Virus record (IMG/VR): IMGVR_UViG_3300029267_002897 | Location: 62,001 to 126,000 of that record | DNA: 64,000 bases | Direction: 5' to 3' (one strand) | Source of the DNA: a virus | Part shown: piece after piece, positions 7,754-28,102 of the stretch | How the letters are laid out: the number at the start of each line of letters is the position of its first letter | How positions within the stretch are numbered: the stretch's first letter is position 1 | Position numbers and translations under genes: made by a program | The notes under the pieces: generated by a model | What the model was told of the DNA's origin: nothing | What the model saw: only the letters and a program-made list of their open reading frames with translations | Database searches by the model: none

Positions 7754-8677
7754 ATGTCGGAGAAACAAACCGAAAACACGCTACCGGTGCCCCCAGAAAC
7801 AGACCTCGCAAACATCGTGCTGCCAGAATACTGGAACCGCGATAAGCCCGGGAGTCTGAAAGACCTGACCACTTCCATCAAGGAGTGCGGCCAGCAGACG
7901 CCAGTGCTCGTGCGTCCGCAGAAGGGTGGGAAGTTCCTGCTCGTGGACGGGCGGCGGCGCTACATGGTGTTGAAGGACCTCAAAATCAAGACCATCCGTA
8001 TCGCGCCGAAGACCGGGAAGGCCGAGGAGGACTACCTCCACAGTCTCGTGGTCAACCTCCAGCGGGAGGGCCACAACCCCATGGAGAAGGCTCGCGTCTT
8101 CAAAGAGCTGAGCGAGAGCGGCAAGAAGAACCGCGAAATCGCCCGCGCCTGTGGCGTGACCGAGGGCAGCGTCAGCCAGCACCTGTCCTTCTTCGAGCTG
8201 CCCGCCAAGATGCAGCGCGCCCTCCGGGATGAGAGAATCACTCCCGGCCACGCGCGCCAGCTTCTGCGCGTGAACGAAGAAGAAGACATGACCATCCAGG
8301 AGAAGTTCTTCGAGAAATGCCTGGAGGGAATGACCGTCACCGACCTGGAAGAGGTCACCGCCCACTACTTGCACCGCAAGGAGGAAAAAGCCAAGGCCAA
8401 GGCCGAAGCCAAGAAGGCCAAGGGCAAGGACGGCAAGGGCAAGGGCAAAGGCAAAGCGGCCTCCGGCAAGAGCAGCAGCGGCAGCGGACGCAAGCCCCAG
8501 ACCACCGACTACGGCGAGTACGAACTCAACATGGTCAGCAAGACGAAGGCCCTCGAGTTGCTCAACTACTACGAGGGTGTCCGCGTCAAGACCCGCAGCC
8601 CCAAGAAGAACGCCTTTTACAAGGGCGTCCTTCAGGGCCTCGAACTAGCCGCGGGCATCATGGAGTTCGAGGACTAG
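7754..8677 (+). CDS. ParB/Spo0J-family DNA-binding protein
   Basis: Encodes 307 residues; the ATG has GGAGG upstream. The N-terminal ParB-like nuclease/CTPase fold is visible as SIKECGQQTPVLVRP followed by FLLVDGRRRY. A helix-turn-helix follows (NREIARACGVTEGSVSQHL, about residue 130). A Lys/Gly/Ser-rich linker (about 205-245) leads to a compact C-terminal region. ParB proteins bind parS palindromes and spread along DNA. No ParA partner is in the window, so the protein may instead be a regulator or genome organiser. A dispersed palindrome found across the window is a possible binding site; that link is untested. The stop overlaps by three bases the stop of the convergent sigma gene. Confidence 0.85.
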   Translation: MSEKQTENTLPVPPETDLANIVLPEYWNRDKPGSLKDLTTSIKECGQQTPVLVRPQKGGKFLLVDGRRRYMVLKDLKIKTIRIAPKTGKAEEDYLHSLVVNLQREGHNPMEKARVFKELSESGKKNREIARACGVTEGSVSQHLSFFELPAKMQRALRDERITPGHARQLLRVNEEEDMTIQEKFFEKCLEGMTVTDLEEVTAHYLHRKEEKAKAKAEAKKAKGKDGKGKGKGKAASGKSSSGSGRKPQTTDYGEYELNMVSKTKALELLNYYEGVRVKTRSPKKNAFYKGVLQGLELAAGIMEFED

Positions 8678-9693
8678 GCGCAAACGTCCGACAGACTCCG
8701 CACACATTTCCGGTCCAATTCCAGCCGTAAGAATTTCAAGGCATCTTCCTTGACCTGACGCACACGCTCCGGCGTGATGCCCGTGATTGCGGCTAGCTGA
8801 TGCAGACTTTTACTGTGGGAGCGACGTTCGCCCTTGGCGACGTCGAAGTATTGCATCATGATGAACCGGTCACGCTCGCGGATGGGTATCCGATGTAGCA
8901 CAGCGTGTAATAGTCCCGCTACGTCGGAGTCGATGGTGGTCTCTTCTATATTCTGATGGGCATCGGCAATTGGGAGGTTGTCGATGGTCATAAACGAATG
9001 TAAGGAAGGACTCTCGTCGACGAGCATGAAATCGTGCGTACCCGTCGTGCATGGGTGTTTAAGACTCGCGTCGAGCATGTCTGGGTCCTCAAGTCGGAGG
9101 TCACAATGTTTACAGACATACACTCCGTACTTCTGAGCCCGACGATGTGCTTTCTGCTTATGGGAAGGGATATGTATCAGGTGACTGTTGTGTATCTCAT
9201 CCATCATTTCCTTACGTATCCACCACGCGGCGTAGGTCAAGAAACGTGTTTTCTTGCTTAGGTCGAACTTATCCACTGCAATGATGAGTCCCAGATTTCC
9301 TGCGGATACGAGCCGTTGGACGTGGATTGGATTCTTAGTAATCTTGCGTGCCGTGGTCATCACGAAACGCAAATTGGAAACGATTAATTTGTTGCGCGCT
9401 TCCATATCGCGGTCGGCACCACATGACGGACAGTACTTGGGACTGACGTGCGTTTCGTATCGAAGCGTACATCTTTCGCATACGTACACGCGTCCGTTGC
9501 TACGTTCCGGCGCGGCGGTAGCGCAGCGAGGACAGTTCTGCACACGTACTCGATGAGGGAGACGTCGTTTACAATGAGGGCACGTTTTATAGCGTACCAG
9601 TAGAGCTTTCTCTTCAGCAGCGGTTAAGATAGGGTGCTTGCCCACGTCTTCGTAGTAATCTCGGAACACTCGGTCCGAGAAGAAGTCGTCCAT
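8674..9693 (-). CDS. sigma-70-family RNA polymerase sigma factor with inserted zinc ribbons
   Basis: Encodes 339 residues from the ATG at 9693, which has AGGAGG seven bases upstream; a GTG eight codons earlier is less likely. It would direct host RNA polymerase to phage promoters. Region 1.2-like sequence (residues 12-36, LTAAEEKALLVRY), region 2 (EARNKLIVSNLRF, then FLTYAAWWIRKEM) and region 4 with a helix-turn-helix (ITGITPERVRQVKEDALKFL) are clear. Two four-Cys zinc ribbons (C38, C41, C54, C57 and C72, C75, C88, C91) interrupt the junction of regions 1.2 and 2.1. A third cluster (C194, C197, C215, H220) sits in the region 3 area. It is transcribed alone, opposite to its neighbours. Confidence 0.88.
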   Translation of the reverse strand: MDDFFSDRVFRDYYEDVGKHPILTAAEEKALLVRYKTCPHCKRRLPHRVRVQNCPRCATAAPERSNGRVYVCERCTLRYETHVSPKYCPSCGADRDMEARNKLIVSNLRFVMTTARKITKNPIHVQRLVSAGNLGLIIAVDKFDLSKKTRFLTYAAWWIRKEMMDEIHNSHLIHIPSHKQKAHRRAQKYGVYVCKHCDLRLEDPDMLDASLKHPCTTGTHDFMLVDESPSLHSFMTIDNLPIADAHQNIEETTIDSDVAGLLHAVLHRIPIRERDRFIMMQYFDVAKGERRSHSKSLHQLAAITGITPERVRQVKEDALKFLRLELDRKCVRSLSDVCA

Positions 9694-9809
9694 AGTAAGG
9701 CCTCCTGTCTTAACCACTGACTGTACTCAAAAGGTCTGGACAGCGCAAGCAGTCCGAGCTATTATCCCAAGTTGCCGAAACATCTCGGAAATAAGAGGAG
9801 AAAGCAAAA
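9694..9809. promoter_or_regulatory. divergent intergenic region
   Basis: These 116 bases separate the sigma gene from the plus-strand replication operon and should hold both start signals. Ribosome binding sites are clear on both sides. On the minus strand a GATAAT hexamer occurs near 9761, but no convincing paired -35 box was seen. Confidence 0.35.
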
Positions 9810-14700: not shown

Positions 14701-15136
14701 CAGCTACTCGGTTTCACAGATGCTGATAAATAGCGAGCGCCGCGCCGAGATTAACTCCCGAGCGTGTGGAGTTTATTACGACTCACAGCAGAACTTGCTG
14801 TTGTTCCTCGTGGAACAAGTCATCCCCCGACTTCTACCGCCGCACCTACTCAATAAAGGCATTACTTCACAGCGGTTGAAAGACACACTCGGCCGTCATC
14901 GTATGGCGCTGTCTAGGAAGGAAATCAAAGAATCTGGGATTCTCCAACGTGTGGGACCCTATCTGGGCGCGGGCGTTAAGTTAGAAAACGTCGTGGTATT
15001 GAAAGTACCGGACAGCTGGCTGCGCGTCACGCAAGACTTACCCGAAGAAAAAGCGGAGGATACCCCCGATGCCGAAGAACCCTCACTCGACGAACCAGAC
15101 ATCGACGAAGACTTCGGAAGCAACGTCGACTGGTAG
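11717..15136 (+). CDS. DNA primase-helicase (CHC2 zinc finger, TOPRIM, P-loop ATPase)
   Basis: Encodes 1139 residues if started at the ATG at 11717; an ATG two codons later (11723) is as likely. Both follow GGGGAC and overlap the nuclease gene. N-terminal CHC2-type zinc finger: C56 with H58/H61, and C84, C87 (CFGC). TOPRIM: YVTEGEMDAMS near residue 303, then LIGDSPKKG. The C-terminal half holds Walker A (TGETHSGKSS, about 745) and Walker B (LLVLDEFELD, about 794). A single protein would thus prime lagging strands and unwind DNA. At nearly 1140 residues it is about twice the size of T7 gp4, with a long central region of no clear assignment. The acidic C-terminal tail (EEPSLDEPDIDEDFG) may recruit partners. 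The polymerase gene overlaps its end. Confidence 0.88.
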   Translation: MPMSSTKRKKKKGISREQLKKIWRQIDVRDWLTLFQEHKPNNAFQVHARNTLLGRCPHPDHADHTPSFWLHSGPNEDDRCFAKCFGCGYFTSNPVELIAITKGISEAETLQFLQEKYNLSFLPKKAAAELEARRKNQLVKNAIFSAARDILVDALANSSAHPYAHQAVDWLINQRHVPKSVLSSLPVGIMPPLLNLQQVLSNQYKRRFKAWRANPTSDKPEDLTDDVTVYLEATYNNTKFNGAIIWPLHVTPKEIGRLKLRVPVSGSKDYAIPEDDFEENLGLYGLGWDAYKSFFKPGGSNYVYVTEGEMDAMSVMAQFMKSGSIHFPIVSAGGLGGAAHIEPVLKESGIEKIFLIGDSPKKGKAGGDTVVQGWLENIRELPTRVFVGWDELLPAGDLDEAVNTQQLGIAKVEETIWKKSDDNFTAPWNWAFERARHELDGLNQEDHRALIEKASEHGRYLRHRLEEAAYVKAVSEAYPQIPERILKLEITTREDNELGFILRVREALSDIFFVVGTLPRDNGRDLLLFHKINKTFTTVKLDSEQSIASELAPLAGNLVEFTKENVGFPAFLTPPDESEGLGMRKLNQNLRMYTKEAVNSLAQGAVDTRFATKLNQGYHCMRQGEHATDPKEYIVCGRDVFRVDRDGPEPTYELLAGPSDRGIVFNGDLSHGMPESWVPHGLTLDALNQGKDVDLKQLYEDIVTYYQCGFRFKNHDITARFLAAIIMLMPIMDVFPNPMMLFVTGETHSGKSSLLASFAGMNNLDHIQLLQHSNGWTSYSAKGVIQAASGDSRLLVLDEFELDGKNRHQVQQIYEIYRSMITGEVRRVVGQPLGVPIKLHLRHPVLFAAITAAEKPQDLNRLIQIEMHKTEFRTRADVPIMRELGREKLDQMRRGLCTGMYPHALKLRKLSEEIMEEYVEFRTELPVNVEWRFASNLYPVMALFKMLDIDWKQFFWDYAAQHEDVLTVAGSVTESETYLDALLQNSNLWDPDTKLSYSVSQMLINSERRAEINSRACGVYYDSQQNLLLFLVEQVIPRLLPPHLLNKGITSQRLKDTLGRHRMALSRKEIKESGILQRVGPYLGAGVKLENVVVLKVPDSWLRVTQDLPEEKAEDTPDAEEPSLDEPDIDEDFGSNVDW

Positions 15137-18134
15137 CGACTACATAGACTGCAATCTTTGCGGTGCCAGGGCCTGGAAAGGCCCACTCTGTTCTGAGTGC
15201 CCCCTTTACCGCAAGAAACATTACACCGAAGGCATCGGTGCGGACCATACACCCGCCGACTACTACATCATCGCGGAGTCTCCCCACGTCATGGGGCCAT
15301 CCGGAGACCTGGATAACCACCAGGGATGGTCTCTCGATACCGAACGCATCATCCGGCAAACCGTATCGCGCTTTAAAGAGCACAACCGGATGTTTGCGGG
15401 GCTAGAAGGGCGTTATACCTATGCCATCCGCTGCGCTATCGATAAACCCAACAAGCGAATGGGCGATTGCTGCTCACCGCTCTTCCACCGAGAACTACTG
15501 AAGCACGCTCCCCAGCACCGGCCCATCGCCGTATTGGCCCTCGGCCCCGCTGTCCTACGCTCCCTCGGAGTCAAGTACGGAAAGTACAAAGAAGTGCAGG
15601 GTAAATTCTTGGAGGTGCAAGTTCAAGGACGTCGCGTTTTTATCTATCCGTCATTATCGAAACGTCAGCTCGCGGCCAAGTCCGGGTACGTCAATGTACT
15701 GGAGCGCCACGTCGAAAACTTCATCCACGGAACGTACGCACTCTCGAAAGGAGAGATAGTCCAGACCGTGGTCCCCATGGAGCAGATAGTTGAGAGCTAC
15801 ATCTTTCCCTCATCGCCCAAAGAAGTGCGGGAACTCGTCGAGTTCATCATCAACTACGCACCTCCAGGCAAAGACCCTCGACATGTGCTGCTGTCTCTGG
15901 ACACTGAAACGAACACTCTGCACCCCCATAGACAAAAGCTCAAGCTCTTGAGCGTCGTGGCTTCCTGGGAAGAAGGGCAGGCGTGCTCCATTCCCTATGA
16001 ACATCCGGAAACTCCTTGGAAGCCGGAAGCCGTGCGCCCGTATATTGCCGAGCTGGTAACATGCTCCAAGCCCAAAGTAGGCCACAACATCAAGTACGAC
16101 CTGAAAGTCTTCGAGCGTAAAGGTTTCTACATTCGTCGCATTTCTTGGGACACGATGATAGGTGAGCACCTCCTTGAAGAAGATAAGAAGGGCTACTACA
16201 GCCTCAAGGATGTCACCAAGCTGATGCTCCCGAAGTACGCTGGATACGAGGACCAACTCCACGACATTCTGAACATGCTCGAAGCCCCGACCCAGGTGCA
16301 ACAGCTCAAAAACGAAGCGGATGGTGTCAAACCTACCATTCCCAAATCCAAACTGCGGGGTGCCGCCAAGAAGTTGGCAGAGGACGATGGTTTTCTATAC
16401 GTACCGCTCAAACAGCTGAACGAGTACGGTGCTATCGACGGCGACGTAACCCGGCAGATTGCCATCATCCAGATGCGACGCATGGCGGAGGAAAACAAGC
16501 GCCTCTACAAGAAGCGTAACGAACTGTGGAAGACCAAGAACAAGTACATGCGTGCCATCGCTCGTCCAGGTGTGAAAGACCCGAATCCACTTCGACAGCT
16601 GATGATTAAGCGCGGGATTCCAGCGACGCGTGCCTTGGCCAGGATGGAAGCCACGGGCATCCGCGCAGACCACGACTATATTGACGAGCTCATCATCGAC
16701 ATGGACCAGTCTTTGCGGCAGTCCAGGCAGATTCTCAATGAGATGATTCCACCGAAGGTGCTCAAGGACCCCTTTAATCCGGGGAGCACCGCCCACCTCC
16801 GCAAGATACTGTTCGCGTCTGGCTACCTGCACCCGGAAACCCAAGAAGCAATTTGTTACCGCGGTAGGGTGGAACCTATCTACACCAGCACCGGCCTTGA
16901 GTCCACGAACCAAGCGTTCTTGCGGAGCCTCGTCACGCAATTCGAATGCCCCTTTGCCAAAGCTGTTCTCAAATTCCGAGCGACTAGCAAAGCCCGAAAC
17001 ACGTTCGTCGCCAACGTCCAGACTCTGAGCATGGAAGACGGACGGATGCACACCTCATTCCACATTGCCGGGACCTCGACTGGCCGTCTCAGCAGCTCCG
17101 ACGAGAACATGCAGAATGTCCCAGTGCGCATCGGCAAGCACAACCTCAAGAAAATGTTCATTCCTACGGACCCGGAAACCGAGGTCATCGTCAACGCGGA
17201 CGCCAAGGCCGCTGAGGTTAGAATCTACGCTGCCTACAGTCGGGACCCCAATCTCATCAAGGCGCTGAACGACGGAATGGACCCCCACAGCTTCTTCGCT
17301 TCGATGGTCTACAACCCTGCGACGGTGTTGCAGGATGTGGAACCCATAATGCGGAAAGCTGTGATGGAAACTGTCGGCATCGACGACGAGCACGCATGGT
17401 CCTACGAGGACTTCCAGAAACGCGACTACTACAAGGGCACCCCGGAAAACCCAGGACCCGACCCGGAGTACGGAAAGCGCCTGGGCAAACTGCGCAAGAC
17501 CATCAAGCGTGTGGTGTTCGGCATCCTCTACGGGGCGAGTCCCCGAAAGGTGTCTTACATCGTGGGCATCCCCCAGGAGCAAGCAGACGTCATCATCGAC
17601 ACCCTCTTCAAGATGTTCCCTACTATCAAGCACTACATCCGGCTCACCAAGGACCAGGTACGCCACCTCGAGACGGTAGAGACTTTTCTGGGTCGCCGCC
17701 GCCGCTTCAACCTGAAGGGGCTCATCTTCCACCTCCGTAACAAGGCCGAACGCCAGGCCGTCAACTTCAAGATTCAGAGCACGTCATCTGATGTGGTTCT
17801 TGGGGTACTCTGCGAATTGATGGACCCGCTGGAACAAGACTTCCACGGACGCATGCTCATCACCGTTCACGACTCTGTGGTCTTCGAAATCCCCAAGCAG
17901 TACATCTCACAGGTTCCGGACTTCATCGAGGAATACGGCGTAAAGCGTGTGGGAGAGCAGTACCCCTGGATGCCGGTCCCCTTCAAATGGGACGTGGAAG
18001 TCGGCCCGAGCTACGGGGAGCTAGCGTCTGTCGAGTCCTACCTTTCCGAGAACCCAGAGTACCGTCTGGGTGACGAAGACGAACACATCGAGCAGGATAT
18101 CCGCTCCGAATTCCAGCAGCTCGTGACGGTATAA
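15069..18134 (+). CDS. DNA polymerase I (family A) fused to uracil-DNA-glycosylase-like domain
   Basis: Encodes 1021 residues, with GCGGAGG upstream and a start overlapping the primase gene. The N-terminal 240 residues resemble a family 4/5 uracil-DNA glycosylase: four cysteines (C28, C31, C41, C44), then YYIIAESPHVMGPSG. Next is a DnaQ-like 3'-5' exonuclease with all three motifs (SLDTET near 275, GHNIKYD near 338, YGAIDGD near 452). The polymerase core has motif A (ADAKAAEVRIY, about 709), motif B (RKTIKRVVFGILYG, about 809, with Phe at the nucleotide-selecting position) and motif C (TVHDS, about 931). This is the replicative polymerase. Whether the glycosylase domain cuts uracil or only senses template uracil cannot be told. 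Confidence 0.9.
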   Translation: MPKNPHSTNQTSTKTSEATSTGSDYIDCNLCGARAWKGPLCSECPLYRKKHYTEGIGADHTPADYYIIAESPHVMGPSGDLDNHQGWSLDTERIIRQTVSRFKEHNRMFAGLEGRYTYAIRCAIDKPNKRMGDCCSPLFHRELLKHAPQHRPIAVLALGPAVLRSLGVKYGKYKEVQGKFLEVQVQGRRVFIYPSLSKRQLAAKSGYVNVLERHVENFIHGTYALSKGEIVQTVVPMEQIVESYIFPSSPKEVRELVEFIINYAPPGKDPRHVLLSLDTETNTLHPHRQKLKLLSVVASWEEGQACSIPYEHPETPWKPEAVRPYIAELVTCSKPKVGHNIKYDLKVFERKGFYIRRISWDTMIGEHLLEEDKKGYYSLKDVTKLMLPKYAGYEDQLHDILNMLEAPTQVQQLKNEADGVKPTIPKSKLRGAAKKLAEDDGFLYVPLKQLNEYGAIDGDVTRQIAIIQMRRMAEENKRLYKKRNELWKTKNKYMRAIARPGVKDPNPLRQLMIKRGIPATRALARMEATGIRADHDYIDELIIDMDQSLRQSRQILNEMIPPKVLKDPFNPGSTAHLRKILFASGYLHPETQEAICYRGRVEPIYTSTGLESTNQAFLRSLVTQFECPFAKAVLKFRATSKARNTFVANVQTLSMEDGRMHTSFHIAGTSTGRLSSSDENMQNVPVRIGKHNLKKMFIPTDPETEVIVNADAKAAEVRIYAAYSRDPNLIKALNDGMDPHSFFASMVYNPATVLQDVEPIMRKAVMETVGIDDEHAWSYEDFQKRDYYKGTPENPGPDPEYGKRLGKLRKTIKRVVFGILYGASPRKVSYIVGIPQEQADVIIDTLFKMFPTIKHYIRLTKDQVRHLETVETFLGRRRRFNLKGLIFHLRNKAERQAVNFKIQSTSSDVVLGVLCELMDPLEQDFHGRMLITVHDSVVFEIPKQYISQVPDFIEEYGVKRVGEQYPWMPVPFKWDVEVGPSYGELASVESYLSENPEYRLGDEDEHIEQDIRSEFQQLVTV

Positions 18135-18654
18135 GAACAGGTCCTAACCCGAGTGGTTCTTTGATTAAGCTGGTAACCGTAATCTGACAGAACCAACTCG
18201 GGGGCAGCTTCGCCATTCGATTTTCCAATCTGAGTGGAAGGTCATTTCCACTCACATTGTCGAATCGAACTACCAGCGTTGGAGTCATTTGCTGACAAAA
18301 GGATGCAACATCCTGACTACGTTCCTGAGCGGTACTCCTCGGCTTGCTGAGCAGTACTCGCCGCCTGCGGTAGCGACTTCTCTTCCTCCTCCAGGTCTGA
18401 GGAAGGAAGTCCACCAAGCAACGCGACCACGAAGTTGTAGTCTTCGATCCGGCGATTCCGGAAAACCATGCGCGTAACGCACATGAAAAGCCCTGAATGG
18501 GCTCACGTCACCATGTCCAGGAACCAGAGCTGTCGGAGCAGCTCTTCGACGCTGGACATGCCTCCGTTCACTGTCTGCGTTGTTTTGCGGACAGCTCCGG
18601 AGCGGTGAACAGCTCCTTCGCGCGGTGTCCGCAAAAGAGACCGCTCAAGGAAGA
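18135..18654. ncRNA. 520-base gene-free, hairpin-dense segment: candidate large structured RNA or replication element
   Basis: Lies between convergent polymerase and TerL genes; no plausible gene was found. Hairpins follow one another almost without gaps: 18148-18202 (13 pairs with one bulge, plus an inner hairpin), 18216-18269 (7 + 4 + 9 pairs, nested), 18301-18313, 18332-18357 (imperfect, nested), 18376-18410 (12 pairs, one bulge), 18430-18446, 18448-18462, 18469-18481, 18489-18503, 18512-18560 (9 pairs enclosing 7 pairs) and 18583-18636 (11 pairs enclosing a 5-pair hairpin). No T-run follows a stem, so they are not simple terminators. Which strand is transcribed, if either, is unknown. Alternatives: origin of replication, or template RNA for the phage reverse transcriptase. 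Confidence 0.5.
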
Positions 18655-20265
18655 CTACTCCTGATAGAACTTCATGTCGTTTTGTTTAATCTTCAGCGCG
18701 ACCCAACCGAAGAGACCGGCGTGCAAACAGTCGTCAGGTTTCTGTGGCGAATGCCGCCATACTTTCTTCCCCGTGTGGGTGACCTCCTCGTATTCATTGA
18801 GGATGTCATCTATCGCGGTTTGCATCTGATGGAGCGGTCCTAACTCGGCCGCTCCTTTTTTTAGTAACATGAAGTAGTTGTCGATGAGCGTGGTACGGTC
18901 AGCGTTGTAGCGGTCCTGACCGTTCCACTTCATCGCCCGAGATTGGGACCCGTATTGCACCTGGGTCACTCGATGATGGCCGAGGCTTTTACGGAGTAAA
19001 TCGTTTGCGAGTGCGCCCTCGCCCGCATCCCCAGCAACCATAGCTACTTGGTAGCCGCTACAGATGGTCGCTATCTCTTCCACGGCATGCACGGGGTTGG
19101 TCCCAGGATAGACCTTGTAGTAGCGGCACACCATCTTCTGGTCTGCGGGCCGAAAGCCCCAAATCCAGAGGACGGAGCGCGAGATGCCAGTAGTCCCTCC
19201 CCCTGACCAGTCAACGCCTGCGACATGCATCGAGTAGCCGAGGAAGTCCGAGTCTTTGGGAAATTGCACAAGCTCTTTGCCGGTGCATAACGCTTGCAGT
19301 TCCTCCAGGCTGATGAGCCGGGTACCAATGGCGTCCGAGACACCCAGGACCTCGTTTCGGAAGGTAGCGGGATTGGGAGTCTCTTCGTATTTGCGGAGAA
19401 TACGATTCCAACGTTTGAGGGCGCGCTCTTCCAATTTGGCGTCATGCTTCATGGAGAGCGGCACGTTGGACGGCATGATGAGCTGACTGATGTGAAAGCC
19501 CTTGAGCAGCACGTCTTCGTCCGGTACGTCATCGTCCGGGGGATTCATGTCAATCCACTGCCCGTTGCGCGGATTGAGATACGCGCTGCATTTGAGGCAG
19601 ATAGGACCAGTCTTTCCGAGAGCCTTCTCCGTATCGATATACTGGTACGAACCGCAGGAATCACACTTCATCACCCACTCTGTCTGAGTGGACAACTCCC
19701 AGAGGTACTGGATGGTGTTCTCCATCGTCTTGGGAGTCCCGGCGTAAGTTTCGTATTGATAATCTGACTCGGACAGTGTTTCATTCCCGACGAGCACTAC
19801 CGGGTCGTAAAGAAGGTCCTGAACCTCATCATATAAATTGCGGTCAGTCGAAGGCCCACGCAGCCGGTCCGGGTCGTCCAACGCGTAGGTGAAGAGCATC
19901 TCCGAACCGTTGGTGAACTGCTTGTGAAATACGCGGTCAGCTAGGTCAGGGTGCAGGAATTTGTTGATGCGCGGCGAATACCGCATCGTCTTCTGCACTC
20001 TAGAGTTGGAAAAACGAACTGTTTGCTCCCGTGTAGGCGTGACGAACATTGTTGAAAAATGCGGTATAAGACTGCACTCAGTAATGCTGAAGTTTGCCAG
20101 GGTCGTGGACTTCCCGACCTGGCGGCTCGTCTTCATCAGGGTACGGGGATAGCGTCCGTCGTAGAACGCTTTGTGCATCGGCCAGTCGTCAAGACGAAAG
20201 GGTTGGCCGTTGAGGTGTATCCACGCCTCAGCAACGTCGCTCAAACATGCGCTTAGTCGCGGCAT
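18655..20265 (-). CDS. terL: terminase large subunit
   Basis: Encodes 536 residues. The packaging motor cuts concatemeric DNA and pumps it through the portal. Walker A is SRQVGKST (residues 47-54) and Walker B with catalytic glutamate is LYDEVQD (about 144). The C-terminal RNase H-like nuclease starts at GVDWSGGG (about 335) and continues with AGDAGEGA. A zinc ribbon (CDSC, then CLKC about 24 residues on) is inserted between the two domains. It stands alone on the minus strand, divergent from MoxR, with 33 bases between starts. No small terminase subunit was recognised nearby, and no late-promoter-like element was found ahead of it. Confidence 0.93.
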   Translation of the reverse strand: MPRLSACLSDVAEAWIHLNGQPFRLDDWPMHKAFYDGRYPRTLMKTSRQVGKSTTLANFSITECSLIPHFSTMFVTPTREQTVRFSNSRVQKTMRYSPRINKFLHPDLADRVFHKQFTNGSEMLFTYALDDPDRLRGPSTDRNLYDEVQDLLYDPVVLVGNETLSESDYQYETYAGTPKTMENTIQYLWELSTQTEWVMKCDSCGSYQYIDTEKALGKTGPICLKCSAYLNPRNGQWIDMNPPDDDVPDEDVLLKGFHISQLIMPSNVPLSMKHDAKLEERALKRWNRILRKYEETPNPATFRNEVLGVSDAIGTRLISLEELQALCTGKELVQFPKDSDFLGYSMHVAGVDWSGGGTTGISRSVLWIWGFRPADQKMVCRYYKVYPGTNPVHAVEEIATICSGYQVAMVAGDAGEGALANDLLRKSLGHHRVTQVQYGSQSRAMKWNGQDRYNADRTTLIDNYFMLLKKGAAELGPLHQMQTAIDDILNEYEEVTHTGKKVWRHSPQKPDDCLHAGLFGWVALKIKQNDMKFYQE

Positions 20266-20298: not shown

Positions 20299-21564
20299 AT
20301 GTCAACTGGAACCAACGAAAAAGAAAAGGCACAGATGTCGTACACCGAGTTGTACGATATCCCCTCGGGGAGCATCGCCGACATCAAGGAACAACTCCGC
20401 TTCTCGATGCGGCACAAGGCCTTTCGCGGTGTCTGGTGTATCGTGGGAGAGGCCGGGATGGGCAAGTCCCAGATCGTGCACCAACTGGCTGAGGAAGAAG
20501 AGGCCCGGGTGTGTGACATCCGGACCGCGCACTTCGGTCTGATGGGGACGGGCATCCCCAGCGTCAAGGACGCCAAGGGAGTCGACTTCTTCAAAATCAA
20601 GCTGCCTGAGGTCTTCCCCGCCGAGGGGGAGAAGGCCATCGTCATGTTCGACGAAATCAACCAGGGCCAGCAGCACGCCATCTCGATGTTCTTCAGCATG
20701 ATTGAGGACCGGCAGATGTTCAACTACTTCCTGCCGGAGAGCGCCCTGGTGGTGGCCATGATGAACCCCAACACCGCACAGTACACGGTCACGCAGATCG
20801 AGAACAACGCGGCGCTGCGGCGACGGCTGAAGTTCATCTTCGCCGTACCGACCACCCGGTCCTTTCTGGACCACGCAGCCACCGACCTCTTCCACTCGAC
20901 GGAGGTCGACATCAATGCGCTGGGCGGTCGGAAGCCGTGCCACCCCGACATCCTGGAGTTCTTCGAGAACAAGGCGGAGATGATTGACGACAAGAAGGCG
21001 CGGGAACAGAACAAGCAGTACACGTGCCCCGCGACCATCCAGACGATTTCGCTCGACGCTTACCTGATGGAGAACAGCGGTATGAACCTCGGAGGAACGT
21101 TCGCCTCCGTGCGCTTCGCCGCGTCCATCGGTGAAACCGCAACGAACCAGCTCAGCGCATTCTTGCGTGACCGCTCGACGGCCATCAGTCCCGAGGACGT
21201 ACTGCGGAACTACGGGAAGGTGCGCAAGAAGGTGGCGACGCTCGTCAAGAACACCAACCAGGAAGCGCTCATGGACCTCAACATGAACGTCCTGGAGATT
21301 CTCTTCGCTAAGCAGTTCGAGGTGGACGAGGTAGCGGAGAACTTCGTACGGTTCATCGATACCCAGCCGCCGGAGAACGTCGGCGCAATCATGAACAGCA
21401 TGAAGCGCGTGGCACAATCCAACAACGCGGAGGAGTACCTGAAGACGCTGATGCGGAAGATGTACACCTTCGATGAGTGGGTCGCGGCACACAAGAAGTT
21501 GGATAAGTCTCACCGTGCGGTGGACGACGACTTCAAGAAATCCCGGAAGAAGAAGAGGCGCTAG
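20299..21564 (+). CDS. MoxR-type AAA+ ATPase
   Basis: Encodes 421 residues with a strong AGGAGG. Walker A is GEAGMGKSQ (about 51-59), Walker B VMFDEIN (about 115-121), and the sensor 1 region VVAMMNPN with the arginine-rich stretch NNAALRRRLKF follows; this is the AAA_5/MoxR pattern. MoxR proteins form rings and usually work with a von Willebrand A protein to remodel or mature a target complex. The likely partner, at 23392-24969, is separated by two minus-strand genes. The tail is very basic (KKSRKKKRR). The last 32 bases overlap the convergent gene at 21533. Possible targets include virion assembly intermediates or the reverse transcriptase operon products; this is inference. Confidence 0.88.
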   Translation: MSTGTNEKEKAQMSYTELYDIPSGSIADIKEQLRFSMRHKAFRGVWCIVGEAGMGKSQIVHQLAEEEEARVCDIRTAHFGLMGTGIPSVKDAKGVDFFKIKLPEVFPAEGEKAIVMFDEINQGQQHAISMFFSMIEDRQMFNYFLPESALVVAMMNPNTAQYTVTQIENNAALRRRLKFIFAVPTTRSFLDHAATDLFHSTEVDINALGGRKPCHPDILEFFENKAEMIDDKKAREQNKQYTCPATIQTISLDAYLMENSGMNLGGTFASVRFAASIGETATNQLSAFLRDRSTAISPEDVLRNYGKVRKKVATLVKNTNQEALMDLNMNVLEILFAKQFEVDEVAENFVRFIDTQPPENVGAIMNSMKRVAQSNNAEEYLKTLMRKMYTFDEWVAAHKKLDKSHRAVDDDFKKSRKKKRR

Positions 21565-22312
21565 TCACCTGGAACCCGACTAGCTCTTCGGCTAGCTTCT
21601 CGGCACGGTCCTTGGTGTAGAGGTAACAAGCAGCCAGCTTGGCAAGCTGTACGCCCAGAGCATTCTCTGAAAACTCAGTGTTTTGGAGACGGTTCTGGTC
21701 GACAGCTTTCCAGGCGGCTGCGACCTCTTTTTTGAGTCCGGTGGGGTCTACGGCGTAAAGTTTATCGAGCGCGCTCTCCGAGAACCGCAGTGACTTAGGT
21801 GGGTAGATGAAGCCCGCGCGCTTGAGGACGACCGCCACGAACATTTGAACGTCCTCGTCAAAGTCTGGCGCTTTACCAGGGTCGTCCGGGTCGAGTCCTC
21901 GAATCGTCTTTGCCTCGTAGACTGCCCAATCCATATGCGCGACTGCTGGTTCCTGAAGTGCCTCTGGGTCGAAAGGAATATCGTTGAAAGCCTGCACCGT
22001 ACGTTGAAACGCGATGCTGTCCCAGTAGAAAGCGGGGTTCACGATGAGCGTGATGGCGGCTTGTATCTTGTTGCGTGCCTCTTCCGGTAAGTCGAAGCCG
22101 TCCTTCTCCATGGTCACCCACAGCGTCTCTGGCTCCCAAGAAAGAACGTCCAACCCGTAGAGAGTGCGCACCGCCAGGAAGAGACCCGCTGCTGTGTCAT
22201 CATCGGGACCGCGCAACAGCTCCCGAGCGTACTCCTCCTCGCTCGCGGACTTCTCGTGATAGGCACAGAGCGTGGGAATCTTCTCTGTGAGTGCTGCCAA
22301 TTTCTCGTACAT
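21533..22312 (-). CDS. hypothetical late protein
   Basis: Encodes 259 residues, acidic and mostly helical by composition, with no recognised family. The ATG follows directly on the stop of the upstream gene at 22313-23320, so the two are co-transcribed. The C-terminal end (SASSSSGIS) overlaps the MoxR 3' end by 32 bases on the other strand. With its partner it is probably a virion or assembly protein, since the pair is preceded by a late-promoter-like element; the function is unknown. Confidence 0.7.
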   Translation of the reverse strand: MYEKLAALTEKIPTLCAYHEKSASEEEYARELLRGPDDDTAAGLFLAVRTLYGLDVLSWEPETLWVTMEKDGFDLPEEARNKIQAAITLIVNPAFYWDSIAFQRTVQAFNDIPFDPEALQEPAVAHMDWAVYEAKTIRGLDPDDPGKAPDFDEDVQMFVAVVLKRAGFIYPPKSLRFSESALDKLYAVDPTGLKKEVAAAWKAVDQNRLQNTEFSENALGVQLAKLAACYLYTKDRAEKLAEELVGFQVTSASSSSGIS

Positions 22313-23320
22313 CTACTTGTAGGGCGTCAGCTGAGTCACGAGGGTCGTCTTCAGGTCTTGTGGCAACGTGCTCAACACCTGGGCCAACTTCTCGGCGTCC
22401 ACAACTCCATCCGAGGTTACTTCCTTGGCCACGTCCTCTCCGAGGGCATCTTGCCAGAAGGTTGCTGGCAACGACGCGAGCTTAATCTTGTCGAACAGCT
22501 CCCCGTTGAGGTTCACCTGGCTAGCCGCAATCTTGGTGGTGTTGAAGACTGACAGCATGGGGTCCGGAACCTTCGACCCATAGAGCTTCTCCACTCCAGA
22601 CTGGTGGTCCAACTCATAGAGAGTTTTGGCGATTTTCGTCTGCTGCTTGGCATCCGAAAAGAACGGATTCATTCCCGAAAGGCCCACGTCCAGCTCTCGA
22701 TACGCGTCGCTGATGGTGGACCCGAGCTTGATGGCCGCCTCTCGGCGTGCGCCGATGTAGTCCCGCAGCATCTGCGTGCTGGTCACAGTAAATCCCGCGA
22801 GTTTGTGGGTAGAAGGAGATAGTTCAACACCGAAGTGTTGGGCGACTTTCACGAGATTCTGAGCAGCGGTAGCTCGGTCTTCGAAGGGCAGCTCCTTGAA
22901 TCGCTCGAGGACCACCTTCTCCGCGACCGGGACATCGGCGGCTTCTTTCACCAGGAACCGTTTCTTCTCCGGAATCAGCCAGTACTCCGGAGACGCCTGT
23001 TTCTCGATGGCGATTGGCGTTTCAAAAACGCTGTTCACTACGCCGTAAACCTCTGCCGCCTTGGTCAGCCGCGCATCGACGTCGGCCGGAACCGCGCTGG
23101 CGTGCTTGCGGTAACCGAGAGACAGAATCGTGTGCTCCCGGTTGTGAATCGGGAATTGTCGGCGGCCTGGCCAAGCGAACGCTGCATCCGGAAGCTCCGC
23201 AAGAACCTCCGGGTCGAGCTCAGCGGTCTTGGACATCTCCCGCACTTGCGGAAACTGGTCGCAGATGGTCCGCAGGACCGAAAATCCCGGATCATTCGTT
23301 TGGTCGATAATGTCGCTCAT
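22313..23320 (-). CDS. probable virion structural protein
   Basis: Encodes 335 residues from the ATG at 23320, preceded by GAGGTAGTG; an upstream in-frame ATG (23374) is less likely. A segment LPDAAFAWPGRRQFPIHNRE (about residues 42-61) resembles a short pattern seen in phage head and prohead-associated proteins, where a hydrophobic start is followed by an FPIH-type motif. The rest is helical with no clear family. Together with the next gene it forms a minus-strand pair wedged between MoxR and its presumed VWA partner. A CTATAATT element lies 36 bases upstream. Function is inferred from context. Confidence 0.65.
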   Translation of the reverse strand: MSDIIDQTNDPGFSVLRTICDQFPQVREMSKTAELDPEVLAELPDAAFAWPGRRQFPIHNREHTILSLGYRKHASAVPADVDARLTKAAEVYGVVNSVFETPIAIEKQASPEYWLIPEKKRFLVKEAADVPVAEKVVLERFKELPFEDRATAAQNLVKVAQHFGVELSPSTHKLAGFTVTSTQMLRDYIGARREAAIKLGSTISDAYRELDVGLSGMNPFFSDAKQQTKIAKTLYELDHQSGVEKLYGSKVPDPMLSVFNTTKIAASQVNLNGELFDKIKLASLPATFWQDALGEDVAKEVTSDGVVDAEKLAQVLSTLPQDLKTTLVTQLTPYK

Positions 23321-23355
23321 CACTACCTCAGTTGGGTTGTTGTTTACGCCCACTG

Positions 23356-23364
23356 AATTATAGA
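23356..23364 (-). promoter_or_regulatory. candidate late promoter element (TCTATAATT)
   Basis: Minus-strand TCTATAATT lies 35 bases ahead of the start at 23320 and matches seven of nine bases of CCTATACTT. The same bases read on the plus strand give TATAGA, so a plus-strand promoter for the VWA operon could overlap. Confidence 0.35.
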
Positions 23365-23391
23365 CAGACGTCAAAAAGGAGGCAACACATT

Positions 23392-24969
23392 ATGGGTGAG
23401 GGAAATGCACTGAGCGAAGTGCTGCAATGGGCATGCAGTCCACGCGGCGGAAATAACTTCTACGGCCGGATTCTCAACGGGTGCTCCCGAATCGTAGCAC
23501 GCGGCCTACAGACCGCTGCGGTCTCCATCACGCCACAAGGGAAGTACCTTTTCATCTACGACCCAGATTGGTTCGGCTCTCTACCTCGGGAGTCGCAGAT
23601 TCTGGTCGTGGTTCACGAGGCAGCGCACCTGGTGCTGGAGCACATCCCACGCATCATGCGCTACCGCATCAACTTCGACTCCCCCGAAAAGTTCCGGCGC
23701 TTCCAACCGGTATTCAACATCGCCATGGACATGGCTGCGAATGACGTAGCGGTTCGACCGTTCCTGGCCGAGAACCCCGCGCACTTCGCCGACCTGGAGA
23801 AGAAGCTGTGCTGGCCGGAGAGTCGCAACTACCCCCGTGACCAGTACATGGAGACCTACCTCAAGTTGCTCCTCGAGGACCTCCAGAAGAACGGCTTCGA
23901 CGTCGGGGAGTACAGCGAGGGTACCTTCGAGGGAGCCGCCCAAGGTGGAGGCGGGGACGGAGAAGAAGAGCAGCAGCAATCCGGCGGCGGTGGCGGAGGT
24001 GGAGGTGGCGGAGGCGGTAGCCAGCAACCGCAGCCGGGGGAGGGAGAGGGGGAAGGCGACGAGCAACAACAGAATCGCCCTGACCCCAAGCTCGGACCGG
24101 GAGACATCATGTCCCAGGACCCCCGGGTACCGTCCTGGTTCCGTGACCTGCTCGACAAGCAGCTCCCGCGACACCTGGATTGGAATCAGGAGTTCGATGA
24201 GATGACCGACTCGGAGCGTGAGCGTGCCATCGAGCAAGCCAAGCGCGACGGGAAGCGCATCGTGGAGTCCGCAGTAGAGCAGACCGCCAAGAGCCGGGGC
24301 ACCGTTCCCGGGCACCTCCAGCACCTCATCGACCGGCTGCTCGAAGAGCCGACCATCCCGTGGGAGATTGTCTTCCGCGGCATGATGAAATCCGCTATTT
24401 CCGCGAAGCTCCAGGAGAGCGTCGTGATGCCAAACCCCGGCATGATGCACCTCGCTGGAGAGGGTATCGAGCCCTTCCCGTACTACCAGCGAGACTTCAC
24501 CTTCCACATCGCAGTCTGCGTGGACACCTCCGGCTCGGTTTCCGACGACGAGTACACCAAATTCATGTCGGAAATCAAAGGCATCCTCGACGCGGAGCAG
24601 GGAGTGTCCGTACAGTTCATCGCCTTCGACCACGCCATCCAGCACGAAGCACTCTTGGACGAGGACAGCGAGGAGTTCGCCAGCAATCGAGCGTATCGCT
24701 ACGGCTATGGCGGTACGTGTTTCAAGCCCGCGCTCAAGCGCGTCATGGGCAAAGACGAAGACTCAGACTGGCTCGAGGGAGCTGAGCGCATCACGGAGGG
24801 CATTCCCAACGCTGACCTGGTGGTGATGCTCACCGACGGTTACGCGCCAGTCCAGAGCCCCGCCGGTCCGATTCCGGACTACGAACCACCCGTACCGCTC
24901 ATCTGGGCGCTCACCAGCAACGGCGCTGAGACCCCCGAGATGCAGCGGGTACTCCGTATCAAGGGATAA
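23392..24969 (+). CDS. metallopeptidase-like plus VWA-domain protein (DUF2201 type)
   Basis: Encodes 525 residues from the ATG at 23392 (AAAGGAGG upstream); an in-frame ATG at 23332 has no such site. The N-terminal part carries a zincin motif HEAAHLVLEH (from about residue 74). A low-complexity linker includes a run of twelve glycines (about 198-209) and many Gln and Glu. The C-terminal part is a von Willebrand A-like domain with the metal site DTSGSVS (about 379) and a later LTDGYAP. This is the DUF2201 pattern of a zinc-peptidase-like head joined to a VWA-like domain. Such proteins are typically paired with MoxR ATPases, as here. First gene of a tight four-gene operon with a reverse transcriptase. 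Confidence 0.87.
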   Translation: MGEGNALSEVLQWACSPRGGNNFYGRILNGCSRIVARGLQTAAVSITPQGKYLFIYDPDWFGSLPRESQILVVVHEAAHLVLEHIPRIMRYRINFDSPEKFRRFQPVFNIAMDMAANDVAVRPFLAENPAHFADLEKKLCWPESRNYPRDQYMETYLKLLLEDLQKNGFDVGEYSEGTFEGAAQGGGGDGEEEQQQSGGGGGGGGGGGGSQQPQPGEGEGEGDEQQQNRPDPKLGPGDIMSQDPRVPSWFRDLLDKQLPRHLDWNQEFDEMTDSERERAIEQAKRDGKRIVESAVEQTAKSRGTVPGHLQHLIDRLLEEPTIPWEIVFRGMMKSAISAKLQESVVMPNPGMMHLAGEGIEPFPYYQRDFTFHIAVCVDTSGSVSDDEYTKFMSEIKGILDAEQGVSVQFIAFDHAIQHEALLDEDSEEFASNRAYRYGYGGTCFKPALKRVMGKDEDSDWLEGAERITEGIPNADLVVMLTDGYAPVQSPAGPIPDYEPPVPLIWALTSNGAETPEMQRVLRIKG

Positions 24970-24971
24970 CA

Positions 24972-25604
24972 ATGCCCAAAACAATTTACTGCGTAAAACT
25001 TTGCCAGCGGCAGGTTCAGGGGAATGAAGAGTTGGGGACGAAGACCCCCTATCTCTACTTCCCCTACGACCGCTTCTACCTGATGAAACGTAACGACCTC
25101 CCATTGGCACAGAAGATGTTTCGCTACTTCTTCATGCTGCCGCTGGACGAGGATTTGCGCCAGGCCATCAAAAACGTGCGTGTGGACAAAACCCGAACCA
25201 TCAGTCAGCTCCGGAACGACAACCTCTTCGAGTACATCGTCGTCTCGGCAGGAGGATACATCTCATGGCTGACAGACCTCAACGAGTGGATGATTGTCGT
25301 GCCCACGCACGTTCGAGGGCGCTACAAGGACCGTGAAGCCATCAATTCGTTTGTCGGGTATGTGCAGTCTCAGGCAGTATTTCGCAATATCGACAAAGAG
25401 ATCAACATGCCCCAGGTGACGTTGTTCACTCCGACTCGAGAAATCGGACTCTTTTGTGCGGTGTGCACCAACATCATGGACTACTACGAAGGCAAGTGTC
25501 GTCCGGGGACACAGCTCTGCCTGAAGAACGTCGATACGGAATTGCCGTACGACAGCTACAACGCCCGCAGCGAGAAACAGTCTTCCGAGGAAGTAGGAGG
25601 ATAG
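24972..25604 (+). CDS. unknown protein with C-terminal four-cysteine knuckle, reverse transcriptase operon
   Basis: Encodes 210 residues; the ATG is preceded by AAGGGA and lies two bases after the VWA stop. No family recognised. The body is mixed alpha/beta with many aromatic residues. Near the C-terminus, C162, C165, C176 and C183 form C-x2-C-x10-C-x6-C, with the last part reading CRPGTQLCLK. A similar ending (HPGTPLCHK) occurs in the helicase at 2499, hinting at a shared zinc or iron-sulfur module. The gene ends five bases ahead of the reverse transcriptase and must be translated with it. It may be an accessory factor for that enzyme. Confidence 0.75.
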   Translation: MPKTIYCVKLCQRQVQGNEELGTKTPYLYFPYDRFYLMKRNDLPLAQKMFRYFFMLPLDEDLRQAIKNVRVDKTRTISQLRNDNLFEYIVVSAGGYISWLTDLNEWMIVVPTHVRGRYKDREAINSFVGYVQSQAVFRNIDKEINMPQVTLFTPTREIGLFCAVCTNIMDYYEGKCRPGTQLCLKNVDTELPYDSYNARSEKQSSEEVGG

Positions 25605-25608
25605 CCTC

Positions 25609-26799
25609 ATGTCCTACGGCTTCAGGTTCACTTCCGTAGATGAAATCCAGGTCCCCGATGTGATGGGAGAGCGAGCGCACGCAATCTTCGACGATTGCGG
25701 CCTCGCCTTCCTCCTGGGATTTCGCAACAAGGTACTGTGGTACGTCATTACGCAGAAAAAGGAGCAATATCACGTCTACTACATCCCAAAGAAGAATGGG
25801 CAGAAGCGCATAATCCACGCCCCGAGCCCGCTCATGAAGGTGATGCTGCGACAGTTCCACACCAAGATACTGGTGCCGTTGCAGAGAGACCTCGGCGAGC
25901 ACGTTACCGCGTACCGACGAGGTATTTCCACCCGGATGGCCGTCAGTGCTCACGTCCCGCAGTGCTCCATCTGCGACGCACTGCCCGTCAGCGAAACAGC
26001 ACCTACGCACAAGTGCCCCCGCAAAGGCACGTACATCAACCTCGACCTTCGAGACTTCTTTCACAGCACGCGGCGCTCTTGGATTCGTCGCTACTTCAAC
26101 GAGGTCATCGGCTACAACCATTTCGTGTCTGACCTGATGGCGAACCTCCTCACGGTGTCCGACATCCCCAACCGACGATACGGAACCACGCATCAGCGGG
26201 AAGACGAGAAGCAGTTCTACTCTGGAGTCCCACAGGGGAGTCCTGCGTCCGGTGCCATCTGTAACCTCATTGCCGATTGGATTCTCGACCGTCCCATCCT
26301 CGACTACTTAGATGAGCTGAACATCCAGATGGGTCTCGCGGGCGAATGGCGTTGGACCTACACCCGCTACGCCGACGACCTCGCCTTCACGTGCGGGGAG
26401 AACCTCCCGCTCACCGAGAAGCGGAAAATCGTCGCCAAGCTAATGAACATCTGCCACCGAGCCGGTTACGCCGTAAACAAACGCAAAACCCGAATCTCCA
26501 GCAGCTATTATCGAAAGCAACTATTGGGCATCGTATTTAACCGGCACCCCAACATCCCCCGAGAAGAGTACATTTCCTTGCGCTCCCTGACCTATAACTG
26601 CCTGGCGCATGGTTTCGATACTCAGTACCTCCGGGCCGGGAAGGAGTCTCCGGCGCAATTACAAGACTGGCTCCGCGGTAAAGTGAACTACGCCATGCAA
26701 GTTAACCCCGAGCGAGGTGCGCGACTCCGCGAGAACTTCGACGCTGCGATGAAAATGTGGGAACATGACAGCCAGATTGCCAGCGTACAAATTGCGTGA
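25609..26799 (+). CDS. retron-like reverse transcriptase with zinc-knuckle insertion
   Basis: Encodes 396 residues; AGTAGGAGG lies ahead of the ATG. RNA-dependent DNA polymerase motifs appear in order: YYIPKKNGQKRIIHAP (58-72), INLDLRDFF (motif A, catalytic D146), SGVPQGSPASGAICNLI (motif B, 205-221), YTRYADDLAF (motif C, YADD at 254-257), VNKRKTRI (motif D, 289-296) and QLLGIVFN (304-311), followed by a thumb-like region. The order matches retron and group II-like enzymes rather than diversity-generating retroelement types. Unusually, C119, C122, H134 and C136 form a likely zinc knuckle just before motif A. No intron, maturase or endonuclease part is seen, and the 5' gap of four bases leaves no room for an msr-msd RNA. 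It has a full catalytic set, so it is probably active. Confidence 0.92.
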   Translation: MSYGFRFTSVDEIQVPDVMGERAHAIFDDCGLAFLLGFRNKVLWYVITQKKEQYHVYYIPKKNGQKRIIHAPSPLMKVMLRQFHTKILVPLQRDLGEHVTAYRRGISTRMAVSAHVPQCSICDALPVSETAPTHKCPRKGTYINLDLRDFFHSTRRSWIRRYFNEVIGYNHFVSDLMANLLTVSDIPNRRYGTTHQREDEKQFYSGVPQGSPASGAICNLIADWILDRPILDYLDELNIQMGLAGEWRWTYTRYADDLAFTCGENLPLTEKRKIVAKLMNICHRAGYAVNKRKTRISSSYYRKQLLGIVFNRHPNIPREEYISLRSLTYNCLAHGFDTQYLRAGKESPAQLQDWLRGKVNYAMQVNPERGARLRENFDAAMKMWEHDSQIASVQIA

Positions 26800-28102
26800 G
26801 GTCTTCACGTTCTGCGTGGATGACGATTACCCGGAATTGCTGTTCTCCACCCTGGACACGTCGCAACAGATAGTCACCCCCGAGAATCTGAAACTCCTGT
26901 CCGAGAGTCAATTGGTCCACGACGTACTCGGCTATCCGTGCATCATGTACGTGCACCGCGGGAGTCTCCCGCATCCGGTTATCCGAATCGCTGGAGATAT
27001 CGGGGATGACGTTATCTCGCGCATACACACTTCACGCATGGGAGAGTACGTCTACATCCTCAATCGGGATTCCGCGAGAAAGTTTCACCCCTACGAGGTG
27101 TACGAAGAGTGCCCTCTCCCTCACAAATACATCATCGGGTGCAACGGCTGCGCGGAGCTTCCGGCCTATGACATGCCGCGCCTTTGTGCTATCCGACGTT
27201 ATCTCCACGATGGGTACTCGACCCCGGACTATGACGGCGCAGACGTGGACGAACTCAACGGAGAAGTCCTCCAATCTTCGGTGACGAAGATCGGCCCCTT
27301 CACATACATCAGCCCCATGCTGACGAAACCTGAAGGGTGGGACCGGGAGACGGTGTTCGCCAAACTGAAACGCCCGTTGGATGCGCACGACTTCTCCGTG
27401 GTCGCAGAGAACTCCCACCGGACCTCCGATGCTGCCGTGGAACGCAACCGTGTTAACCGTTTTCGCCGCGAAGTGTGTCCTACTTGCCTGGTGCACGCGG
27501 GATGTCTCTGTTACGCCGAGCGCTGGCAGATAGCCCGCTGCGCAGGAGCATTCGCACAAACGGAAGACGAGGCCGCGGAAGAGGTACTCTCTAAGGTGCA
27601 CATCCCCTTCAATGACGCACAGCTTCGGTATCTTCTAGCGAACAGCGGAGAACTATCCGAGCGATTCGACCGCCACATCTGCGTGGGGAGCTTCTACATC
27701 GACTACGACTGGCGTACCCACAAGAACATCTTGCGGTTCGGCCTGCGTTACCGCACTGCCAACAGCAACAACATCGACGTGGCTTTCTCGTCTTTCAAAG
27801 AGGCGAAACACGTCCTCTCGGAATACGGCTACGACCGAAGTTGGCCCGAGTGGCGCGGGCGCATGACGAAGAAGCGCAAAGCCCTTCTAGCCTGCGCCGC
27901 GCACATCGACCGCAGCCCGTACAAACAATGCGGATGGGTGAAAACAAGTTACAGCATCCTGACGATGGTCCCTAGCTACGGAGATGCCATCGAATTACAT
28001 TTCAACTGGGGCGGACGACGCCCCCTAGCCTGGACGGCAACCGTCCAGAGCTTCAGCGACTTCTACAAACACTGGAGGGAAGTACCGTACCTACACCGAT
28101 AG
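26765..28102 (+). CDS. unknown cysteine-rich protein downstream of reverse transcriptase
   Basis: Encodes 445 residues, no family recognised. Its start overlaps the reverse transcriptase end by 35 bases, with only a weak GGGAAC ahead of the ATG, so translation is probably coupled. Cysteine sets occur at C116, C126, C129 (ECPLPHKYIIGCNGC) and C238, C241, C247, C249 (CPTCLVHAGCLC); the latter is followed by an aromatic, basic stretch. The C-terminal half contains beta-rich segments (FYIDYDWRTHKNILRFGLRY). The consistent packing of VWA, unknown, reverse transcriptase and this gene suggests one functional unit in which this protein may bind the nucleic acid product or act as effector. That is inference. 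Confidence 0.75.
   Translation: MTARLPAYKLREVFTFCVDDDYPELLFSTLDTSQQIVTPENLKLLSESQLVHDVLGYPCIMYVHRGSLPHPVIRIAGDIGDDVISRIHTSRMGEYVYILNRDSARKFHPYEVYEECPLPHKYIIGCNGCAELPAYDMPRLCAIRRYLHDGYSTPDYDGADVDELNGEVLQSSVTKIGPFTYISPMLTKPEGWDRETVFAKLKRPLDAHDFSVVAENSHRTSDAAVERNRVNRFRREVCPTCLVHAGCLCYAERWQIARCAGAFAQTEDEAAEEVLSKVHIPFNDAQLRYLLANSGELSERFDRHICVGSFYIDYDWRTHKNILRFGLRYRTANSNNIDVAFSSFKEAKHVLSEYGYDRSWPEWRGRMTKKRKALLACAAHIDRSPYKQCGWVKTSYSILTMVPSYGDAIELHFNWGGRRPLAWTATVQSFSDFYKHWREVPYLHR

Follow-up and report, generated by a model that had tools for sequence, protein, structure and literature searches.

A phage polymerase-terminase gap that very probably carries two retron-type non-coding RNAs

Introduction

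Retrons are known mainly as bacterial anti-phage defences. The non-coding RNA (ncRNA) of Retron-Eco1 (Ec86) tolerates change nearly throughout, except at the priming G that follows a1 and in the triloop of the second of its msr stem-loops (PMC11754653). Retron-Eco2 (Ec67) has the inverted repeats IRa1/a2, a branched G and a long msd DNA hairpin (PMC12405507), and retrons are also known from prophages (PMC8867640), where they travel as accessory cargo and have the ncRNA adjacent to the reverse transcriptase (RT). Two further kinds of phage element offer comparisons, namely diversity-generating retroelements (DGRs), in which a phage-borne RT uses an RNA template, and GOLLD and ROOL, which are large structured phage-associated RNAs.

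Here we analyse a hairpin-dense segment (18135-18654) within a 64,000-nt stretch, hereafter the window, of a virus record of 179,063 bases (IMGVR_UViG_3300029267_002897, positions 62,001 to 126,000). From its sequence we conclude that the segment is very probably an array of two retron-type ncRNAs on the + strand, which would serve as template for the phage's own RT. The units appear to conserve the hallmarks of retron ncRNAs, that is a1/a2 repeats, the position of the priming G and the msr stem-loop with its triloop. As in Retron-Eco1, a1/a2 inverted repeats enclose two msr stem-loops, of which the second has a 3-nt loop closed by G-C, followed by a large msd hairpin and then a2; the G after a1 and the msr triloop, which are exactly the positions where Eco1 tolerates no change, are conserved here, and the RTs are homologous (E 1e-31). 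The triloop is however NNA here and UUU in Eco1, and of the conserved UAGC around the Eco1 branch G only the G is kept. The a1/a2 repeats, branched G and msd hairpin are shared with Retron-Eco2, whose RT is the best PDB sequence match of the window RT, but Eco2 differs in having only one msr stem-loop and in the fusion of its RT to Toprim, which the window RT lacks.

What sets the system apart from known retrons is its arrangement. RT and ncRNA units stand about 7 kb apart in equal orientation, several ncRNAs occur per genome, some arrays combine one msr with many msd-a2 cassettes, and the system belongs to the conserved gene set of large, uncultivated phages, with no recognised effector. In contrast to prophage-borne retrons, the RT neighbourhood and the position of the array are conserved over a phage clade whose terminases are ~48-74% identical. 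The usual retron arrangement, with the ncRNA next to the RT gene, is thus not found here; because this adjacency is a usual order and not part of the mechanism, we file the system as a retron variant rather than as a typical retron. The distance between RT and ncRNA and the departure from the Eco1 UAGC nevertheless weigh against the retron reading.

Results

The segment is the exact non-coding gap between two convergent genes, whose stops face each other:

15069..18134, + strand: family A DNA polymerase, the upstream neighbour (PF00476; stop ends at 18134)
18655..20265, - strand: terminase large subunit, the convergent neighbour (PF05876, phrog_675)

Folded as RNA, it reaches -219.9 kcal/mol on the + strand (z -7.58) and -231.8 kcal/mol on the - strand (z -9.61), and none of 100 dinucleotide shuffles folded as well as the real sequence. 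All three 150-nt windows over the segment are among the most structured of the 64 kb, in which a few isolated 150-nt windows score equally low. The initial annotation, made from the letters alone, had described a non-coding stretch between polymerase and terminase, with hairpins denser than chance, no plausible gene and no T-run after a stem. This description was borne out: its gap coordinates are exact, the large stems it listed are present in the folds, both strands fold far better than shuffles, T-runs are absent and no ORF in the gap is conserved among relatives. At Rfam gathering scores the segment has no match, relaxed thresholds yielding only noise (E = 2.8-4.7), and 14 related loci likewise gave no match to Rfam covariance models at gathering level. 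No match to the gap sequence turned up at the DNA level among phage isolates. Elsewhere, positions 1-180 of the window are structured and include a stretch resembling a tRNA anticodon arm, GGACTGTAAATCC; a tRNA scan of the window called none.

On the + strand the gap resolves into two units, U1 and U2, preceded by a stretch of other structure:

18135..18275, no strand assigned: two more strong hairpins, located after the polymerase stop and before U1, with the unit layout absent (fold)
18276..18424, + strand: U1, retron-like ncRNA unit of 149 nt (a1/a2 pairing around a triloop hairpin; enclosing stem recovered by minimum free energy (MFE) folding)
18276..18281, + strand: U1 a1, GCGTTG, pairing with CAACGC at 18419-18424
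18282..18282, + strand: U1 candidate priming (branch) G directly after a1, assigned by analogy with Retron-Eco1 (PMC11754653)
18284..18296, + strand: U1 first msr hairpin, GTCA-TTTGC-TGAC (fold)
18300..18314, + strand: U1 second msr hairpin, AGGATG-CAA-CATCCT, with a G-NNA-C triloop (triloop census, covariation across units)
18315..18418, + strand: U1 putative msd (template) region between msr and a2, with large hairpins in the fold
18419..18424, + strand: U1 a2, CAACGC, with AAG just before it (fold)
18437..18658, + strand: U2, retron-like ncRNA unit of 222 nt (MFE fold with enclosing stem, two small hairpins and large hairpins)
18437..18445, + strand: U2 a1, GTAGTCTTC, followed by G at 18446; perfect pairing with GAAGACTAC at 18650-18658
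18448..18462, + strand: U2 first msr hairpin, TCCGG-CGATT-CCGGA (fold)
18467..18485, + strand: U2 second msr hairpin, CATGCGCG-TAA-CGCACATG, with one C.A mismatch on the + strand (fold)
18486..18649, + strand: U2 putative msd region, with large hairpins in the fold
18650..18658, + strand: U2 a2, GAAGACTAC, with AAG just before it (fold)

In both units MFE folding recovers the a1/a2 enclosing stem, a G follows a1 and AAG precedes a2. The last 4 nt of U2 lie within the 3' end of the terminase gene, so that the end proposed initially, 18654, is right as the boundary of the gap and falls short for the second unit, which runs into the terminase stop region at 18658. U2 was recognised by inspection and lies outside the hits of the strict scan described below, which missed it because its triloop stem has one mismatch. 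That it was found by eye, and that this mismatch wobbles on the other strand, count against the retron reading.

Relatives were collected by terminase searches, which yielded 18 and then 80 viral contigs (individual records are given as L numbers). The convergent order of terminase and polymerase is kept in nearly all of them, while the gap between the two genes ranges from 0 to more than 1 kb and is apparently non-coding, some larger gaps including short genes. The gaps have hardly any sequence in common, yet they share hairpins with 3-nt loops. Across ~35 related phage loci a recurrent unit can be read on the polymerase (+) strand, in the order a1, G, small hairpin, G-NNA-C triloop hairpin, large variable region, AG and a2. 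The triloop hairpin lies ~15-27 nt after a1 and the variable region averages 109 nt; units measure ~100-220 nt, with up to ~10 per gap. A strict scan of 25 kb of gaps, which like the covariation counts below selects partly for pairing, found 55 units on the polymerase strand and none on the terminase strand, against 0.05 per shuffled set.

Counted independently of any unit model, perfect stems of at least 6 bp with a triloop numbered 115, whereas shuffles gave 14.4, and a single loop family, with a G-C closing pair, is dominant among triloop hairpins; one subgroup (L054, L056, L058 and L060) has a 5-nt loop in the corresponding hairpin. When the best a1/a2 pair was chosen around each triloop hairpin with the flanking bases left unconstrained, 61 of the 103 assignments had a G directly after a1 and 50 had AG directly before a2. 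The linker between a1 and triloop, which was never part of unit selection, folds better than its own shuffles in 63 of 73 units. Across units the triloop stem carries 81 two-sided changes against 22 in shuffles, with 97% of cells paired; because this stem was itself among the criteria by which units were selected, the loop census is the cleaner evidence. Between two fairly close relatives, compensatory changes over the whole gap were only modestly above expectation, which counts against the retron reading. Class D units aligned by sequence alone give a poor consensus fold outside the triloop hairpin.

The same genome carries further units at other sites: three in tandem at ~132.0-132.5 kb (L128 6041-6464), one or more at 13.1-13.4 kb (L125 13122-13350) and others at 22.1-22.5 kb beside tRNA genes (L126 2142-2478). 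The low-information covariance model R1 is a poor detector of such units, because its recovery in the phage's own genome was limited to those near tRNAs. A tmRNA and several tRNAs are also encoded in this genome (L128 9829-10207; L125, L126).

The strand on which the parts of a unit act was addressed through wobble pairs. Triloop hairpins with exactly one non-Watson-Crick pair had G.U in 17 cases and A.C in 3, as read on the polymerase strand. In all other stems, mostly msd, the bias is opposite, with 314 G.U against 462 A.C on the polymerase strand (p 1e-7) under a symmetric score that weights both pairs alike; it was this score, and not an ungapped strict-stem test, that resolved the asymmetry. 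Consistently, 52 of 73 msd regions reach the better fold when read on the terminase strand. For the first msr hairpin the strand bias is not significant, which counts against the reading that follows. Wobbles in the triloop hairpin would fit an RNA made from the polymerase strand, and those in the large hairpins the opposite strand, as in folded cDNA. Such a pattern is expected of a retron, because its msr acts as RNA and its msd as opposite-strand cDNA, and would arise neither from a cruciform nor from a single RNA. We also considered the units as a four-way RNA on the terminase strand and dropped this candidate, as the wobbles of both the triloop hairpin and a1/a2 point to the polymerase strand.

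A GGTATAA-like motif lies downstream of the polymerase stop and just ahead of the first a1 in 11 loci, against 0.21 expected, and it also precedes a unit at another site in G022; it suggests a candidate promoter on the polymerase strand. The window encodes two sigma-70-like proteins and a ParB-like protein (8674-9717, 44454-45164 and 7754-8677), and the phage promoters may be read by the phage's own sigma factor.

The putative enzyme is encoded downstream, between two conserved neighbours:

24972..25604, + strand: conserved 210-aa protein with four invariant Cys, directly upstream of the RT and RT-linked in relatives
25609..26799, + strand: retron-type RT, 396 aa, YADD (Pfam RVT_1; NCBIfam retron_St85_RT, 1e-37; PADLOC retron RTs)
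26765..28102, + strand: conserved 445-aa protein, overlapping the RT 3' end and conserved in relatives

Retron enzymes are the nearest matches of the RT in NCBIfam, PADLOC and PDB, its PDB profile matches are all led by retron RTs, and the active site is intact (xxDD, as YADD, YSDD or YCDD) in 17 relatives. RTs of phage isolates all lie at or below ~25% identity to it, and their terminases are only ~30% identical to that of the window. Only 4 nt separate the upstream ORF from the RT. As to an effector, neither of the two conserved neighbours of the RT has a recognisable domain; the 210-aa protein has no Pfam-like, PDB or fold match, and structures predicted for both, with low to moderate confidence, included one compared with the PDB, without a match. 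The conserved block reads RT, 210-aa protein, VWA protein, two opposed genes, AAA ATPase, terminase, (array) and polymerase. An AAA ATPase and a DUF2201 metallopeptidase/VWA protein (window 20299-24969), conserved beside the RT block, recall MoxR-VWA pairs. Polymerase genes of some relatives contain intein-like insertions ending in VNHN (L114 2741-3948, ~1.2 kb; L002 8765-9066; L116 6920-7218).

An RT stands at the corresponding place in 33 of 50 related records, and most records without one stop short of its position. Four records in which the position is covered and the RT absent (L077, L086, L091 and L092) are also free of units, except that L086 gave a single weak match under relaxed criteria. 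Conversely, L032 and L044 have no gap, keep the RT and carry units elsewhere (L140 14689-14976; L133 11135-11307), and inspection of L136 near 19470-19670, in the same set of gapless phages, revealed a further unit. Statistics on this co-occurrence are confounded by shared ancestry. Four distant, RT-bearing relatives (L063, L066, L071 and L075) have no such unit in the gap, which counts against the proposed link; they may use another structure or place for the template. Their RTs are ~32-34% identical and have no insertion.

Arrays in several phages have just one a1-msr, behind which come multiple segments that all end in a common a2. There are nine such msd-a2 cassettes per a1-msr in L034, five in L085, four in L035 and three each in L027, L031, L038 and L054. 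Within an array the a2 copies are nearly identical and the intervening segments differ; in L034 the a2 copies depart from full complementarity to a1 by a change that is compatible with pairing, as G.U, solely on the polymerase strand. One primer RNA could therefore yield several different msDNAs.

Discussion

A phage RT with a retron-type sequence, units laid out as retron ncRNAs and the co-occurrence of the two support the proposal that the segment provides the template of this enzyme. The initial annotation had raised this possibility next to a GOLLD- or ROOL-like large RNA and a hairpin-rich replication origin, and it is the only one of the three with good support.

By analogy with known retrons, the units would be transcribed from the + (polymerase) strand and the a1 and a2 ends would pair. 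The RT would recognise the triloop of the second msr hairpin, prime from the G directly after a1 and, with the msd as template, make a branched single-stranded DNA linked to RNA (msDNA), which would then fold into hairpins of the mirror strand. Where a single a1-msr serves up to nine msd-a2 cassettes, several msDNAs would be produced. For transcription, reverse transcription and the use of each and every cassette we infer these steps from sequence.

The alternative that fares best is a set of tandem structured phage RNAs with a role unrelated to the RT, such as a packaging RNA or a decoy, acting from either strand. Both the position next to the terminase and the RNA layout are conserved, as such a role would have it, but the layout agrees point by point with that of a retron ncRNA, the strand bias flips between the triloop hairpin and the other stems, units leave the terminase in gapless phages while the RT stays, and relatives without RT are also without units; we consider it unlikely. 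A DNA-level element, in which replication origins, recombination sites or packaging sites act as cruciforms or single-stranded hairpins, would account for dense hairpins between convergent replication and late genes and for strong stems on both strands. A cruciform should however be neutral as to strand, whereas the G.U/A.C asymmetries are strong and change direction from one part of the unit to another; as triloop, priming G and spacing are conserved and units occur at other sites of one genome, we regard this explanation, including the origin suggested initially, as very unlikely. Weaker still, to the point of being hard to credit, are REP/BIME-like palindromes or bidirectional terminators, since convergent gene ends with strong hairpins would suit them but T-runs are absent, units of 100-220 nt with long-range a1/a2 pairing recur up to ~10 times in a gap, and units are also found away from convergent ends. 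A large ornate RNA of the GOLLD, ROOL or OLE kind would likewise be phage-borne, large and structured, but the region, with no gathering-level Rfam match in the window or the 14 loci, splits into independent units of ~150-220 nt, and its probability is negligible.

As to what the retron-type array is for, the fast-changing, repeated msd cassettes suggest a role in an arms race, perhaps as decoys for host-retron effectors or in the exclusion of rival phages. For the msDNAs we tentatively prefer a role as decoys or sensors, in conflict with host retrons or with rival phages, to a core part in replication, while holding that this assignment could well be wrong; the conserved RT block could equally indicate a core role. 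Self-directed recombineering or a DGR-like use is not supported, because the msd regions have no match in the rest of the genome: a search for a DGR variable repeat found no array match longer than 19 nt in the rest of the fetched genome. The window RT also differs from those of DGRs in matching retron models.

With about even confidence we propose a broader picture, in which a clade of large phages has a retron within its conserved gene set. The ncRNAs of this retron would stand in arrays at a distance from the RT, with several in each genome, and many interchangeable msd-a2 cassettes would share one primer/msr module (1:9 in L034, 1:5 in L085, 1:4 in L035), so that one enzyme would give a battery of msDNAs, probably an arms-race arsenal. 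Our literature search, which covered open-access papers and left subscription papers outside its scope, found no description of phage-encoded or multi-msd retron arrays. One primer RNA for several DNA templates would be a new retron architecture, of practical use for making many single-stranded DNAs from one transcript. If true, the usual role of retrons would be reversed in a phage lineage that has a retron of its own with arrays of diverse template RNAs, and this would raise the question of whether the msDNAs are decoys for host retrons, weapons against rival phages or parts of replication. The contig of the closest relative (L101 = QMZE01000001.1; L002) has the same extent as one binned into an Archaeoglobales MAG, which may reflect either the host or a binning error.
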